A stretch of 64,000 nucleotides of DNA. It comes from Neoroseomonas marina. GTDB taxonomy: Bacteria; Pseudomonadota; Alphaproteobacteria; Acetobacterales; Acetobacteraceae. The notes under the pieces are model-generated. The model worked only from the letters and a program-made list of their open reading frames with translations, was not told the DNA's origin and did no database searches. The DNA is taken from the NCBI RefSeq assembly GCF_012927745.1, contig NZ_JABBKX010000001.1:62001-126000 (forward strand), written 5' to 3'. Every line of letters starts with the position of its first letter. The first letter of the stretch is position 1. The position numbers and the translations under genes were made by a program. Below, in pieces: positions 25,342 through 30,574 of this stretch.

Positions 25342-27360
25342 TCAGGTCAGGCCGGCCTTCCGCAGCCCGGCGAGGTAGTGCTCGATATCGGCGGGCCGGC
25401 CGTCACGTGGGACCGTGTTGAAGGGTGCGCGTTCGCGCGCCTTCGCGAGGGTGAAGTCGGCCTCCATCGCCAGCAGCTTCGCGCGGACCTTCGCCGCCTC
25501 GTTCAGCCGCCCCAAATGGCCCAGCGCAGAGAGCCACACCTTGTAGGGGAAGGTGAAGCCGGTGTGCAGCGCGGTCACCTGGCGCGCCGCGGAATCGACA
25601 TCCTCGTGCCGGCCGAGCAGCAGCAGCGGCACCAGCCGCGTCGCGTCGAAGAAGAACGCGTGCGGGTGGAACGGCGCGAGGCGCTTGTATCGTTCCCAGC
25701 GGTGCAGCGCCTCCTCGTGCTCGCCGCGGTAGGACAGGGCGAGTGCGGAGAAGACCCAGGCGAGCGGCAGGTTGGGGTTGAGCGCCAGCGCCCGTTCGTA
25801 CAGCGACACCGCCTCGGGGATCTGGTGATGCAGGAAGGCCCGCACATGCCCCAGGATCGCGAGCGCATGGGCATCGGAGGGATCCAGTGACACCGCCCGG
25901 GCAGCCAGTTCCTCGCTCTTCGCCAGCACATCCTCATCCGCGCGTGCCCAGCCCTGTCCGACGAGGAACAGGTACCAGTACGCGTGCCAGGCGAAGGCGG
26001 GCGCGTAGTCGGGATCCAGGCGCGTCGCTTCCTCGAGCATCGCGCCCGCGGCTTCGTAGGCCTGGCGGTCGAGCCGGTAGATGGCGGGGATGGCGCGCAG
26101 CAGCAGGTCGTAGGCGGTGATGTCGACCTGGGGACGGGCCGCGGCGCGGTTCGCCTCGATCAACAGGATCTCGGGGTCGACCCGCGCGACGACTTCGGCC
26201 GCGATCTCATCCTGCAGCTTCAGGATGTCCGCCGCCTCCCGGTCGAAGCGTTCGGTCCACACAACGGCCTCGGGCGGTCGGTGGTCCGTCAGTTGCAGCG
26301 TGACGCGAACGCGATCGCCACCGCGCTGGATGCTGCCGGACAAGCTGAAATCGAGATCGAGCTGTTCCGTCTGCCCTTCCGAACGCCGCGCCGCCGCGAC
26401 GGATGCGCTGTCCACGAGCACGAGCCAGCGAAACCGGGCGAGCGAGGCCGTGATTTCGCCGGCCAGACCGAGCGAGACCTCCTCATCCGACTCGTTGCCG
26501 AGCACCCGAAAGGGCATGACACCCAGGCGCGCGCCCCGCCCTGCACTGCGCCGATGCGGCATCAGGACGGGGGGCGGGACTTCGCCACGGAGGGATTCGG
26601 CCAGCGCGGCGGTCTCAGGCGATGGCGCGCTGCGGAACCGCTCGGCGAAGATGCGGCGGCAATCCTCCCACGCGGCGAATGCCGCGCCGCGATCGCCGGC
26701 CTCGGCCTCGGATCGGATCAGGATGCGCCAGACCGGCTCCTGCGCGGCGTCGATCGTGAGGACGCGGCGGGCCTCCTGGGCACGGGCCAGGGGCGTCGTC
26801 GCCGCCGCCAGGCGGGCGCTCGCCACATCGAGGGCCAATTCCCGCAGCCGGCGGCGCTGCTGCTGCAGCCAGGCATCGAAGGCGGCATCGAGGCCGTCGA
26901 GATCCGAAAGGAACTCGGACAGCAGCAGGTTGAGAGCCTCGACGCGATCCCGCGCCATCCCCGGGACCTCCCGCGCGTCGACCCAGATGGCTCGGGTATC
27001 GAGCGAGACGGTTTCCCGGGTGGCGGTGAGGAGGCCCTTGCCCCAGTCGCCGAGGCACTCCTGCAGTTCATGAAGGGCCTGGCGCAGCGATCCGCGGGAC
27101 TGTTCCTCGCCGCGGCGGCTCCACAGCAGATCGGCCAGGCGCTGGCGGGATATCGCTGCCGGCGCCTCCAGCGCCAGCACGGCGAGGACCGCCCGGGTCT
27201 TGCGGGACCGGGGCAGGAGAGGTTCACCTGTGATCGCGCGCACATCCATGCGGCCGAGCATGGCGATACGAAGCCGGGCGGGACCACGCCCTGCGGCGTC
27301 GGCTAAACCTTCGAAGGAAGGTCTTTGGTCCTGTTCTGAGGCGGATGAGAGTTCAGACAT
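25342..27360 (-). CDS. BTAD/SARP-type winged-helix regulator with TolB-like and TPR domains
   Basis: This 672-residue protein looks like a large one-component regulator. Residues about 30-110 form an OmpR-like winged helix (ISRQRLADLLWSRRGEEQSRGSLRQALHEL), followed by a bacterial transcriptional activation domain to about 265. A TolB/FlgO-like domain (GVMPFRVLGNESDEE) then covers about 280-400, and the C-terminal part is TPR-like, with repeated A-W, P and L helix pairs. No phosphoacceptor domain or membrane helix is visible. The ATG at 27360 is preferred; a GTG lies two codons before it. It is divergent from the repeat-protein gene, with phased TAGGAA motifs between them, so it may regulate that gene. 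Confidence 0.82.
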   Translation of the reverse strand: MSELSSASEQDQRPSFEGLADAAGRGPARLRIAMLGRMDVRAITGEPLLPRSRKTRAVLAVLALEAPAAISRQRLADLLWSRRGEEQSRGSLRQALHELQECLGDWGKGLLTATRETVSLDTRAIWVDAREVPGMARDRVEALNLLLSEFLSDLDGLDAAFDAWLQQQRRRLRELALDVASARLAAATTPLARAQEARRVLTIDAAQEPVWRILIRSEAEAGDRGAAFAAWEDCRRIFAERFRSAPSPETAALAESLRGEVPPPVLMPHRRSAGRGARLGVMPFRVLGNESDEEVSLGLAGEITASLARFRWLVLVDSASVAAARRSEGQTEQLDLDFSLSGSIQRGGDRVRVTLQLTDHRPPEAVVWTERFDREAADILKLQDEIAAEVVARVDPEILLIEANRAAARPQVDITAYDLLLRAIPAIYRLDRQAYEAAGAMLEEATRLDPDYAPAFAWHAYWYLFLVGQGWARADEDVLAKSEELAARAVSLDPSDAHALAILGHVRAFLHHQIPEAVSLYERALALNPNLPLAWVFSALALSYRGEHEEALHRWERYKRLAPFHPHAFFFDATRLVPLLLLGRHEDVDSAARQVTALHTGFTFPYKVWLSALGHLGRLNEAAKVRAKLLAMEADFTLAKARERAPFNTVPRDGRPADIEHYLAGLRKAGLT

Positions 27361-27642
27361 TCTCACGGGATGCTAACGGGAATGGCGATTGCGACCAAAT
27401 CCGTGCCGCCGCGCCGCCGCGGTTATCGTTTCGGGCCGCGAAGGGTAGCGCCTCTTCGCTGCGCAGCGCGGGGGATCCGTCCCGGATGTGCCTCACCGGT
27501 TATGTTCTCCCCACGAATTAATCCTGTGGTTGTGTCCGACTCCGTTAATTTCGCGTTATAGACGTTATTGCCGCATGAAACCAGCGTTCGTCTAGGTCAT
27601 GTTGCTGGTCTTTAACTACGTCGCTGGAAAGAACTCTGACCG

Positions 27643-27700
27643 TTTTCCTATATCAATATCTTACTAGGAAAAAAAAATACATCAAGTAGGAATGTTTCCT
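27643..27700. promoter_or_regulatory. phased TAGGAA motif cluster, candidate operator
   Basis: Four copies of a TAGGAA-like motif lie in 58 bases: TTTTCCTA at 27643-27650 (inverted), TAGGAAAA at 27665-27672, TAGGAA at 27687-27692 and TTTCCT at 27695-27700 (inverted). The first two are an 8-base inverted repeat with centres 22 bases apart; the second and third direct copies start 22 bases apart. Twenty-two bases is two helical turns, the phasing expected for a dimeric regulator. SARP-type proteins bind directly repeated short motifs with whole-turn spacing, so the divergent BTAD regulator is the natural candidate. Binding has not been shown. Confidence 0.45.
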
Positions 27701-27725
27701 TGTCATCCGCAATCTCCTGGTTCAC

Positions 27726-27760: not shown

Positions 27761-27775
27761 CAGGAGCCGGATTAC

Positions 27776-28810
27776 ATGCCCAAGACCCTCGCCTCCGTCG
27801 CCGACAAGGGTATCGTGCGCCTGGGTGCCGGCTGCCGCACCCCCAAGGCCTCTGTCGCCGATAGCGGCGTGGTGCGCGTCGGCGCCGGCTGCCGCACCCC
27901 CAAGGCCTCCGTCGCGGACAGCCGCGCAGTGCGCGTCGGCGCTGGCTGCCGCACCCCCAAGGCCTCTGTCGCCGACAGCGGCGCGGTGCGCGTCGGCGCC
28001 GGTTGCCGCTCCCCGAAGGCTTCTGTCGCCGACAGCGGCGCGGTGCGCGTCGGCGCTGGCTGCCGCACCCCGAAGGCCTCTGTCGCCGACAGCGGCGCGG
28101 TGCGCGTCGGCGCCGGCTGCCGCACCCCGAAGGCCTCTGTCGCCGATAGTGGTGCGGTGCGCGTCGGCGCTGGCTGCCGTACCCCGAAGGCCTCCGTCGC
28201 CGACAGCGGCGCGGTCCGCGTCGGCGCTGGTTGCCGCACCCCGAAGGCGTCTGTCGCCGATAGCGGTGCGGTGCGCGTCGGCGCTGGCTGCCGTACCCCG
28301 AAGGCCTCGGTCGCGGATAGCGGCGCGGTGCGTGTCGGCGCTGGCTGCCGCACGCCGAAGGCCTCCGTCGCCGACAGCGGCGCGGTGCGCATCGGCGCTG
28401 GCTGCCGCACCCCCAAGGCCTCTGTCGCCGATAGCGGCGTGGTGCGCGTCGGCGCCGGCTGCCGCACGCCGAAGGCCTCCGTCGCGGACAGCGGCGCGGT
28501 CCGCGTCGGCGCCGGCTGCCGCAGCCCCAAGGCGTCCGTCGCGGACAGCGGCGCGGTCCGCGTCGGCGCCGGCTGCCGCACCCCGAAGGCCTCCGTCGCG
28601 GACAGCGGCGCGGTGCGCGTCGGTGCCGGCTGCCGCACGCCGAAGGCCTCCGTCGCGGACAGCGGCGCGGTGCGCGTCGGCGCTGGTTGCCGCACCCCGA
28701 AGGCTTCTGTCGCCGACAAGGGCACCGTCCGTCTCGGTGCAGGCTGCCGTACGCCGAAGGCCTTCATCATCGACAAGGGCGTCGTCCGGATGGGCGCCGG
28801 CTGCCGCTGA
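27776..28810 (+). CDS. tandem-repeat protein with 18 Cys-containing 19-residue repeats, function unknown
   Basis: I do not recognise this 344-residue protein. It consists of 18 repeats of consensus TPKASVADSGAVRVGAGCR, 19 residues each; the first is two residues longer and starts MPKTLASVADKGIVRLG, and the last two units diverge (KGTVRLG, then AFIIDKGVVRMG). Every unit has one Cys in GAGCR, so Cys recur every 19 residues, and each is strongly basic. No signal peptide or membrane segment is seen. AGGAG lies 9 bases before the ATG. It follows an AT-rich region with phased motifs, and precedes a DUF6065-like gene. It could be a multi-core peptide precursor or a repeat-solenoid protein; neither is shown. 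Confidence 0.8.
   Translation: MPKTLASVADKGIVRLGAGCRTPKASVADSGVVRVGAGCRTPKASVADSRAVRVGAGCRTPKASVADSGAVRVGAGCRSPKASVADSGAVRVGAGCRTPKASVADSGAVRVGAGCRTPKASVADSGAVRVGAGCRTPKASVADSGAVRVGAGCRTPKASVADSGAVRVGAGCRTPKASVADSGAVRVGAGCRTPKASVADSGAVRIGAGCRTPKASVADSGVVRVGAGCRTPKASVADSGAVRVGAGCRSPKASVADSGAVRVGAGCRTPKASVADSGAVRVGAGCRTPKASVADSGAVRVGAGCRTPKASVADKGTVRLGAGCRTPKAFIIDKGVVRMGAGCR
27839..28807 (+). repeat. 17 tandem 57-bp coding repeats
   Basis: From 27839 to 28807 there are 17 head-to-tail units of exactly 57 bases, each encoding 19 residues, with an 18th, 63-base unit at 27776-27838. Units differ mainly at third codon positions (GCC/GCG, GAC/GAT, GGC/GGT), so protein sequence is conserved more than DNA. 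Units 2 (27839-27895) and 12 (28409-28465) are identical, which suggests duplication or gene conversion. There are no unique spacers, so this is not a CRISPR array. Confidence 0.95.
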
Positions 28811-28824
28811 TCCACGGCGCAGGA

Positions 28825-28841
28825 GGCTCCCCCGCGGAGCC
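28825..28841 (+). terminator. weak hairpin between the repeat gene and the DUF6065-like gene
   Basis: GGCTCC (28825-28830) and GGAGCC (28836-28841) form a 6-base stem with a 5-base loop, 14 bases after the repeat-protein stop. It has no U-run. A partial terminator here would let the repeat protein be made in excess over the downstream protein; equally it may be chance in GC-rich DNA. Confidence 0.25.
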
Positions 28842-28881
28842 CCTGCCCCTGTAGGATCCGCGCCGCCTTCAGGACCCGAGA

Positions 28882-29694
28882 ATGACCCAGGACCGTACCC
28901 CCGTCGTTGCCTTCCACCGCCTGATCCCCGGGATCCCGGCGCCGACGCGGGCAGACAGGTCAGGGCTCGGCGGGCTTCCCACCCGCGCCTATCGCTTCTG
29001 CGACGCGGTCACGACGGCCACCGGGTACGGGTGGCACATCACCTCCCCGCTCAATTTCATGCTGATGTGGGACGGGCACGAAGTGCTCTGGACCTGCGAC
29101 GAGCTCGAGAACGAGTGGATGCCCCTCGGCCTCGGCGCGGTGCAGTACCCCCATTTCCGCGCTCGCTTCGACGAGGAAGTGCCCGAGGACATTCGCGGCT
29201 ACTCGCCGCCCTTCCTCACCGGCCTGCCCGAGGCCGGCGTGGTGCAGATGTGGACCGGCCTGTTCGTCCGGACCGCGCCAGGCTGGTCGGTGCTGACACG
29301 GTCGCCGGTGAACCTGCCGCGCCCCGCCGCCTATGAGCAGTTCGAAGGCATCGTCGAATTCGACAAGTGGTTCGGGCCGCTCTTCACCAACATCCGCATC
29401 ACCCGCACCGACACGCCGATCGAGATCAATCAGCTGCGGCCGATCCTGCAGGTGATCCCGATTCCGCAATTCGCCTATGCGGATCCGATCCTGAATTCCG
29501 CCACCGTCTCCGACGCCTTCACGCAGTGGGGCGATGCGGAATGGGACGCCTATCGCGAAAGCGTGGTGATCCCGGCGAGCGCCGAGGAACACCAGGCCGG
29601 CCGCTACGCCGCCGATGTGCGTCGCGCCCGGCGCAATGCCGGCTGTCCCTTCGCCGCCATGGCAGCGGCCCGCGAGGCGAACGAGACGGGCTGA
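28882..29694 (+). CDS. DUF6065-like protein
   Basis: This 270-residue protein appears to match the DUF6065 family, whose reaction is unknown to me. The order of blocks fits: an N-terminal region with GWHITSPLNFMLMWDG, then WTGLFVRTAPGWSVLTRSPVNLP, EGIVEFDKWFGPLFTNIRITR and EINQLRPILQVIPIPQ. It is rich in aromatic residues and has no signal peptide or membrane helix. It lies 71 bases after the repeat-protein gene and on the same strand, separated by a weak hairpin, so co-expression is plausible. The ribosome site is poor (AGGACCCGAG). Family assignment is from pattern memory, hence moderate confidence. Confidence 0.6.
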   Translation: MTQDRTPVVAFHRLIPGIPAPTRADRSGLGGLPTRAYRFCDAVTTATGYGWHITSPLNFMLMWDGHEVLWTCDELENEWMPLGLGAVQYPHFRARFDEEVPEDIRGYSPPFLTGLPEAGVVQMWTGLFVRTAPGWSVLTRSPVNLPRPAAYEQFEGIVEFDKWFGPLFTNIRITRTDTPIEINQLRPILQVIPIPQFAYADPILNSATVSDAFTQWGDAEWDAYRESVVIPASAEEHQAGRYAADVRRARRNAGCPFAAMAAAREANETG

Positions 29695-29761
29695 GGTCCC
29701 CTTCCTGGACTTCGCCGCGCAAGGGCGCATCATCCCGGCCGACACCGAGGAGGATCGCCCC

Positions 29762-30574
29762 ATGAATGATGCACCACCCATCGCGGAATCACGCCCGCTC
29801 GACGGCAAGGCCGTCGCCGATCTCGGGCGCCAGCTGACCGAGCTGCTGCGCCTGCGCACCCTGCCGATCGGCATGAAGCTGTTCGAAAGCGATGAGGAGA
29901 TGGCGAAGGTCCCGGGCCTTCGCCGCCCGGCCGCGGGCCGGAAGTTCTCGACCTGCCAGCTCGTCACCCAGGCGCGCATCGCCGGATTCACGCTCGGCAT
30001 CACGCATGACAACGTGCCGGGCTTCTCGAACTGCGGCGGCGTCATCGGGCTGAACGAGCCCTCGGAACTCTACCTCTCGGGCCGCAAGTTCGAAGGCGTG
30101 TGGTTCGAGAATCGCGAGGCGGCGAAGAAACACCAGGCCGAGATGCCGCGCGTCCCGCCGCGCTATGCCGGCGTGGTCGTGTCCCCGCTGCGCAGCGCGC
30201 GGCTCGATCCGCCCGACATCTGCCTGTTCTATGCGAACCCGGCGCAGATGATCCTCTTCGTCAACGGGCTGCAGTGGAAGAACTACAAGCGCTTCGAATT
30301 CTCCATCACCGGGGAGAGCGCCTGCGCCGATTCCTGGGGCCGCGCGCTGCGCGACCGCGCGCCGTCGCTCTCGATCCCCTGCTACGCCGAACGCCGCTAC
30401 GGCGGCGTCGCGGATGACGAGATGCTCATGGCGCTGCCGCCGGGCGACCTCGCCATCGCTGTCGAGGGGCTGCTCGGCCTGTCGAAGGCCGGGCTGCGCT
30501 ATCCGATCATGCCCTATGGCCCGCAGGCGGATCCGGCGGAAGGGATGGCGAAGTCCTACGCGGACAAGTCCTGA
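29762..30574 (+). CDS. DUF169 domain protein
   Basis: This 270-residue protein belongs to the DUF169 family of uncharacterised cytoplasmic proteins. It shows the family's Cys-bearing KFSTCQLVTQAR block, the later SNCGGVIGL motif, and CLFYANPAQMILFVNGLQW, with further conserved ITGESACADSWG and SIPCYAERRYGG. The repeated conserved Cys suggest a metal or cofactor site. GAGGAGGAT precedes the ATG at 29762. It is 67 bases downstream of the DUF6065-like gene and could be in the same transcript. A strong hairpin follows the stop. Confidence 0.85.
   Translation: MNDAPPIAESRPLDGKAVADLGRQLTELLRLRTLPIGMKLFESDEEMAKVPGLRRPAAGRKFSTCQLVTQARIAGFTLGITHDNVPGFSNCGGVIGLNEPSELYLSGRKFEGVWFENREAAKKHQAEMPRVPPRYAGVVVSPLRSARLDPPDICLFYANPAQMILFVNGLQWKNYKRFEFSITGESACADSWGRALRDRAPSLSIPCYAERRYGGVADDEMLMALPPGDLAIAVEGLLGLSKAGLRYPIMPYGPQADPAEGMAKSYADKS

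Follow-up and report, generated by a model that had tools for sequence, protein, structure and literature searches.

We consider it likely that a tandem-repeat gene of Neoroseomonas marina encodes a multi-copy peptide ligand whose receptor would be a cytoplasmic SARP-TPR regulator that acts at its own promoter, with the neighboring DUF6065 protein as output or processing partner. The evidence computed directly is the array itself, the three-gene module to which it belongs, the pattern of variation within and between species, the co-variation of regulator and peptide, and the fold predictions. The whole stretch of 64,000 nucleotides analyzed is referred to as “the window,” and the features discussed are collected in Table 1. 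Broadly, the array gene would give rise to numerous copies of a single short peptide ligand, in which a constant frame (D-x-G-x-V-R-x-G) precedes a 3-4-residue core, uniform per array and species-specific. The C-terminal TPR domain of the regulator would read this ligand in the cytoplasm, with residues 610 and 649 possibly lining part of a pocket that accommodates the variable core residue (Cys in the window). By binding direct repeats in the shared intergenic region, the regulator would set the expression of array and DUF6065, and probably its own, and DUF6065 would be either the output of this loop or a protein that processes or presents the peptide. In this scheme we infer direct binding, the use of the operator, feedback and the role of DUF6065. 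A previous sequence-only reading covered the array alone; the divergent regulator and DUF6065 were outside its view.

Table 1. Features of the module in the window (positions counted from its first letter).
Feature	Position	Strand	Basis
SARP-type regulator (BTAD, C-terminal TPR), 674 aa, proposed receptor, divergent from array	25342..27366	-	Pfam, model, co-variation
Codon of regulator residue 649 (Phe here), second tracking column	25420..25422	-	Counted from the 674-aa frame start 27366
Codon of regulator residue 610 (Val here), tracks core residue	25537..25539	-	Counted from the 674-aa frame start 27366
Two 11-bp direct repeats CGTTAATTTCG-CGTTATAGACG, proposed operator	27543..27564	+	Conservation; AfsR-site analogy
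Imperfect inverted repeat CAAGTAGGAATGTTTCCTTG, conserved, upstream of array	27683..27702	+	Conservation
AGGAG, likely ribosome-binding site of array	27762..27766	+	Upstream of ATG
Peptide array, 344 aa, 18 units, core residue +6 = Cys in all	27776..28810	+	Sequence, TRF, within/between-array comparison
Conserved hairpin, located between array stop codon and DUF6065	28815..28851	+	Conservation
DUF6065 protein, predicted dUTPase-like fold	28882..29694	+	Pfam, predicted model

The units of the array protein all end in GAGCR, and its 18 Cys residues are distributed one per unit, as the sequence-only reading had stated. Its description as 18 near-identical 19-residue Cys repeats holds for the number of units and has to be amended in two points: unit 1 (MPKTLASVADKGIVRLGAGCR) contains 21 residues, two more than each of units 2-18, and “near-identical” is too strong for the last two units (KGTVRL; FIIDKGVVRM). 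TRF reports 17.8 copies with a period of 57 nt. The unit comparison bears out the identity in DNA of units 2 and 12, and units 2-18 present 83 differences from the 57-nt consensus, distributed as 8/8/67 over codon positions 1/2/3 (pS 0.347, pN 0.052, pN/pS 0.149); with 67 of 83 differences at third positions and a pN/pS of 0.15, purifying selection acts on the array protein, as had been proposed. This is the single array gene found in the genome (5.15 Mb, 43 contigs), the two further matches corresponding to the antisense strand at the same place; likewise, a long antisense ORF (27772-28917) and the minus-strand matches in genome searches were rejected as mirror images of the real frame. The claim that the repeat belongs to no described family agrees with the scans of Pfam and NCBIfam, where neither the array protein nor its relatives matched any family above the curated cut-offs, and with PDB sequences, among which the array protein had no match. 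Several weak matches were taken as repeat or composition artefacts, i.e., autotransporter AIDA-I (NCBIfam, 4e-15, 54 bits against a cut-off of 1200), Pfam PPP1R21_C (below cut-off), phrog_2853 (2.5e-10, with no single stretch passing alone) and the sub-cut-off Pfam matches of the array relatives. In the portions of the literature accessible to the search, six repeat strings returned a single occurrence of one string, judged unrelated, and no title or abstract describing a module of array, regulator and DUF6065 was retrieved.

Matches were found in 19 of 200 genomes of Acetobacteraceae searched, several minus-strand ones being the antisense of real genes. The true relatives are peptides of 1 to 15 units with the pattern [VI]AD-x-G-x-[VI]-R-x-G-[AG]-x-x-[RP], and the unit number across arrays, window included, goes from 1 to 18; the smallest precursors (L157, L164, L165; start codons chosen by script) have around 30 aa and one unit, without leader. 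Disruption of the frame in every close relative had been named as evidence that would speak against the sequence-only reading, and the opposite is seen: relatives of the same clade, carrying 3 to 15 units, have an intact frame. The closest named genome found is that of Neoroseomonas oryzicola (Acetobacteraceae), whose adjoining DUF6065 is 99% identical. Cys occupies the core site in the window, in N. oryzicola and in a few others, and V, M, L, I, F, Y, W or A are found elsewhere.

For each unit position, the difference inside arrays was compared with that between arrays, leaving out arrays of less than two units together with L150, L156 and L176 (N runs or wrong frame). For the 15 arrays and 120 units of the Neoroseomonas clade, the difference at site +6 is 0.01 inside arrays and 0.84 between them (ratio 0.01). 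Sites -3, -1, +2 and +8 also vary between species, with ratios of 0.53-0.63, and the clade shows no variation at D(-4), R(+1), G(+3), A(+4), G(+5) and R(+7); the ratios of sites +10 and +11 are also low (0.24 and 0.12), in part because unit lengths of 17 or 19 residues shift both sites. Over all 58 arrays (276 units), the ratios at +4/+5/+6 are 0.04/0.07/0.09, the remaining measurable positions ranging from 0.25 to 0.90. The core must therefore match among the copies of one array while species diverge, and recent duplication alone is insufficient to account for this uniformity, because many silent differences separate the window units. Turnover of the inner units has proceeded separately in the window and in N. 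oryzicola (KG to SG, KG to TG), their best matches retaining 5-8 differences in 57, and the last two units correspond one to one, with 2-3 differences. On the DUF6065 tree (23 rows), the +6 residue requires 10 changes, against a shuffled mean of 11.3 (as low in 27 of 200 shuffles). Two paralogous modules occur in Neoroseomonas alba (L116 and L169), with cores GAGIR and GGLSP and distinct regulators (I610 and A610).

The co-variation between ligand and proposed receptor is the strongest result of the analysis. The aligned regulators of 12 Neoroseomonas-clade genomes provided 225 variable columns, each scored by AMI against the +6 residue (L112 was left out of the co-variation tests as a near-duplicate of the window). 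Column 610 ranks first (AMI 0.88) and column 649 second (0.76), followed by a third at 0.49; under label permutation the best value was reached in 2 of 20,000 runs and the second-best in 0 of 20,000, with 0 of 300 in a separate run. Cores C/V/M/L/I are accompanied by V/I/L/A/I at 610 and F/F/L/M/L at 649; thus, the I and V genomes share I610 and differ only at 649. Residue 610 is shared by 12/12 same-core pairs (mean regulator identity 0.817) and by 3/54 different-core pairs (identity 0.809), and shared descent is a poor explanation, because same-core regulator pairs are barely closer than different-core pairs and the genomes are about equidistant. A further Met-core locus, L243, retrieved after the pattern had been seen, carries L610/L649 as do the other Met genomes of the clade, being a weak independent test at 92% identity to L119. 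For nine further peptide positions, the values stay at or below 0.10 against column 610 and 0.05 against column 649. As a control, the best of 78 DUF6065 columns reaches 0.30 against the core, corresponding only to lineage columns and not to tracking.

In the wider set of 67 distinct regulators, residue 610 is present in 64 (all except L156, L184 and L252). The aromatic residues F, Y or W at +6 go with Gly610 in 12/12 cases, and Gly610 occurs with no other core; these 12 regulators include three close relatives, and L069 among them was read by eye, its listed commonest core being spurious. V is found with Ile610 in 4/5, M with Leu610 (4) or Thr610 (9), and L with Ala610 in 4/7. For the 42 cores ending in R or K, the side-chain volumes at +6 and 610 show a Spearman correlation of -0.68, uncorrected for kinship, the most negative of 412 columns; the bulkier the +6 residue, the smaller residue 610 tends to be. 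Exceptions to this size rule are L with P (L107), L with F (L142), C with P (L139), C with A (L159) and V with L (L088). The 16 cores of xxP type, all with A or S at +6, are accompanied by P610 in 11, H610 in three and A610 in two; six loci (L069, L088, L133, L139, L148 and L059) fall outside these 42 + 16 rows, as their commonest listed core ends neither in R/K nor in P. Position +5 may pair with 649 in the xxP cores, as in L109 (core GGGAP with Trp649). The regulator thus changes in step with the peptide across species, which suggests that it recognizes the peptide, and we read the co-variation as a probable direct contact of the peptide core with the C-terminal domain of the regulator.

This regulator contains a BTAD domain (E 7.9e-07, 30 bits against a Pfam cut-off of 22.1), also found in 3/4 relatives scanned, and a TPR_11 match above the Pfam cut-off, and its predicted model includes a helical repeat; its gene adjoins the peptide gene. 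A putative OmpR-type winged helix ahead of BTAD is indicated by a Trans_reg_C match below the Pfam cut-off (E 0.0048) and supported by the fold match to AfsR (8hvr_I), which spans 264 columns; the Pfam scan gave no NB-ARC match. In the model (pLDDT 88.2, pTM 0.60), residue 610 is placed within helix 606-618, and 649 directly after helix 640-646. Foldseek relates the N-terminal part of the model to DNA-bound AfsR (8hvr_I; 23% identity, TM-score 0.63 on target, rmsd 5.5), and the rest to TPR proteins, EmbR and, loosely, the periplasmic domain of CadC (3ly8, TM-score 0.44 on target, rmsd 16).

SARP-TPR regulator, peptide array and DUF6065 form a module present in Acetobacteraceae and in some other Alphaproteobacteria. 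Alignment of DUF6065 against genome contigs confirmed 246 relatives, and the upstream sequence of 80 of them was searched for the peptide. By motif, the peptide lies upstream of DUF6065 in 68 of these 80 loci (L156 among them was counted on a wrong frame, the real variant sitting in another one). The 12 motif-negative loci comprise two with less than 160 nt upstream (L190, L191), six with a variant repeat recognized by eye (L144, L145, L155, L174, L184, L188) and four in which neither motif nor eye revealed a recognizable peptide upstream (L149, L152, L158, L175 (Elioraea)). Motif and the six variants together place a peptide upstream of 74 of the 78 testable window-type DUF6065 genes, and a looser script returned 71 of 80 loci. 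The strict motif detected it in 60/76 window-type loci and in 33/46 of a second, overlapping locus set, with 0/76 downstream, 0/76 on the reverse strand and 0/380 in resampled sequence (first-order Markov, not exact dinucleotide shuffles). Canonical DUF6065 genes (L092-L102) have neither peptide upstream (0/11) nor regulator (0/11). Strongly deviating repeats (TPVKVEVGNGAIAPKVALHRTK; KSKVKLGMMAPAFG), devoid of the unit Asp, precede DUF6065 in L144, L145 and L196.

The BTAD-TPR regulator accompanies 30 of 48 window-type loci (window included), being divergent upstream in 24, convergent downstream in five and further downstream in one. Overall, it is present in 108/171 loci, and in 55/80 of the set from the DUF6065 search; its absence from some loci is partly due to the ends of contigs or retrieved stretches. 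Locus figures such as 153/171 do not count independent genomes, as the two locus sets overlap. Two further alphaproteobacterial families possess both peptide and DUF6065, the cores being GNMSPAF and GMMAPAF; the regulator was seen there in 1/4 short loci. An anti-phage defense system was considered and rejected, as PADLOC-DB 2.0.0 gave 0 families at E <= 0.1 for the three module proteins.

The intergenic region between regulator and array has 409 bp and 53% G+C (start codon included), against 71% G+C in the window, and several of its blocks, including the direct repeats and the inverted repeat, are conserved across 12 genomes. The direct-repeat pattern, the candidate operator, has no second genomic site at up to 3 mismatches (control 0), and the inverted-repeat pattern occurs at one genomic place, a control finding as many. 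A sigma-70 promoter scan found none. The hairpin behind the array is also kept in 12 genomes, with 12 consensus pairs, three of them with changes on both sides; as it has no T-run, its role may lie in protecting the mRNA of the array or in reducing the expression of DUF6065. If the loop is limited to its own promoter, DUF6065 would be its main output.

The assignment of the DUF6065 protein to PF19541 is clear (47.8 bits against a Pfam cut-off of 26.6), and its model (pLDDT 88.7) retrieved dUTPases in all of the best 50 matches listed in both structure searches (VIA Z 10.0-10.7; 2okb_A at 2.3 Å over 112 residues). We regard DUF6065 as a predicted fold relative of dUTPase; by eye, EGIVETDRWFGP appears to correspond to motif III of dUTPase, the Asp of which would be matched by the invariant Glu159. 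Comparison with dUTPase profiles by hhalign gave a probability of 0.1%, not above that of unrelated controls, no GFGSTG-like C-terminal motif is seen in the 81-sequence consensus, and the genome encodes a separate dUTPase. One weak phage-family match was obtained, to the uncharacterized family phrog_7084 (3.1e-05), and the literature accessible to the search contained nothing on DUF6065.

Different uses of such an array can be envisaged. The sequence-only reading had listed a multi-copy peptide precursor with putative cleavage, an option that our results favor in a broad sense, next to a Cys ladder, metal binding or cross-linking, which they do not: the Cys site varies among relatives, whereas D, R and G of the unit hardly change. 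One Cys every 19 residues in the array protein would suit a repeat protein of structural or metal-binding role whose Cys residues form a ladder, but this reading is contradicted by close relatives with V, M, L or I in all copies and by single-unit relatives, and we hold it to be extremely improbable, although the Cys species may have a function of their own. It is unlikely, too, that the array is the multi-core precursor of a RiPP, with DUF6065 as modifying enzyme and the SARP as pathway regulator sensing the product, as described for NosP. The clustering of array, DUF6065 and SARP gene and the diversified core agree with it, and NosP is described as responding to metabolites or intermediates, peptidyl ligands being named in a reference title (PMC10972967, from the excerpt available). 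However, the predicted fold of DUF6065 is dUTPase-like, no known RiPP enzyme was detected by profile (Pfam and NCBIfam) in ten nearby window ORFs, no DUF6065 column tracks the core, neither an immunity nor a transport gene was recognized among the 25 largest neighbor clusters, and the sole partner linked throughout is DUF6065.

Within the preferred reading of a peptide ligand and its SARP-TPR receptor, the peptide could act between or inside cells. As an intercellular pheromone, the units would be cut out, leave the cell, re-enter and be sensed by the regulator as kin density, a possibility that we consider less likely than not. It would fit a species-specific core, uniform within the array, with a co-varying receptor, the two paralogous modules with other cores in N. 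alba, and the multi-copy propeptides, up to six copies, of RRNPPA systems (PMC9765709, in the part of the article accessible). A TldD-type metallopeptidase gene precedes the module in eight loci (L058, L062, L063, L075, L078, L082, L087, L089; confirmed by Pfam in two), but most of the 48 loci have no TldD neighbor; cytochrome-oxidase assembly genes lie before or after the TldD gene in some loci (COX15-CtaA before it in L082), so that its place may be a shared insertion site and not a functional link. Against a pheromone, none of 55 precursors has a 15-aa stretch of mean hydropathy >= 1.6 in its first 30 aa, no exporter was recognized among the 25 largest neighbor clusters, and one-unit precursors of about 30 aa would need no cutting; with neither signal-peptide-like segment nor recognized exporter, a secreted signal would thus have no visible route. 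Alternatively, the uncut array may bind several regulator molecules inside the cell and titrate or lock them, the unit number acting as dose. The absence of an evident signal peptide, a SARP regulator of cytoplasmic type in which no membrane segment was noticed, the range of 1 to 18 units and a putative operator without second genomic site (<= 3 mismatches) are consistent with this; by itself, however, it leaves the strong between-species difference of the core unexplained, and we consider it rather unlikely.

The arrangement recalls the RRNPPA systems of Firmicutes (Rap, Rgg, ComR, NprR, PlcR, PrgX, AimR), where a small peptide gene adjoins that of a cytoplasmic TPR receptor; according to the accessible text, some propeptides are multi-copy, with up to six mature-peptide copies, and a single variable position has been suggested to give specificity (PMC9765709). 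On the other hand, the receptor is here a 674-aa SARP/BTAD protein, beyond the 250-500 aa that RRNPP_detector admits for HTH-TPR or TPR-only receptors in the sections seen (PMC10075063), and the module differs in its 18 copies, the lack of a visible export signal, which in RRNPPA propeptides is of Sec type (or SHP type), the third gene DUF6065 and the alphaproteobacterial host; signals in Proteobacteria are typically small molecules, as the same excerpt states (PMC10075063). NosP, from the nosiheptide pathway of Streptomyces actuosus, is likewise a SARP, said in the passages available to respond to precursor-peptide-derived ligands (PMC10972967); nosiheptide comes from a biosynthetic cluster, whereas such enzymes were not recognized here. 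Besides the N-terminal match of the regulator model, the 11-bp direct repeats resemble the site of AfsR, a global SARP regulator, given as CGTT(T/C)ATCGNN direct repeats in the portion consulted (PMC10972967), but there is no NB-ARC match and the rest of the model resembles TPR proteins. DUF6065 shares its predicted fold with dUTPases and differs from them in the lack of a significant profile match and of the C-terminal Gly-rich motif, next to the dUTPase that the genome already possesses. The yeast alpha-factor precursor, too, strings together nearly identical copies of a pheromone specific to the species; it differs in being secreted through a signal peptide and processing sites and sensed by a membrane receptor.

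Taken together, this may represent an undescribed peptide self-recognition system of Alphaproteobacteria, combining leaderless arrays of up to 18 copies, a bump-and-hole pocket in a SARP-TPR protein, DUF6065 with its dUTPase fold as output or maturase, and a core code with repeated diversification, both among species and among paralogous loci in a single genome; we advance this wider reading tentatively, with the balance slightly against it. If true, a peptide-ligand/cytoplasmic-receptor system would be added to Gram-negative bacteria, with two receptor residues and one ligand residue named as a swappable code. DUF6065 gains genetic partners and a predicted fold, and the reading accounts for an 18-fold repeat otherwise mistaken for a structural protein.

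Neighbor clustering revealed no downstream neighbor recurring in many module loci. In the window, a DUF169 gene (29615-30574) follows DUF6065. A small minus-strand gene lies 0.7-1.2 kb past the DUF6065 start in eight loci (L057, L069, L077, L083, L084, L088, L104, L105), and one of the two scanned encodes a response-regulator receiver domain.
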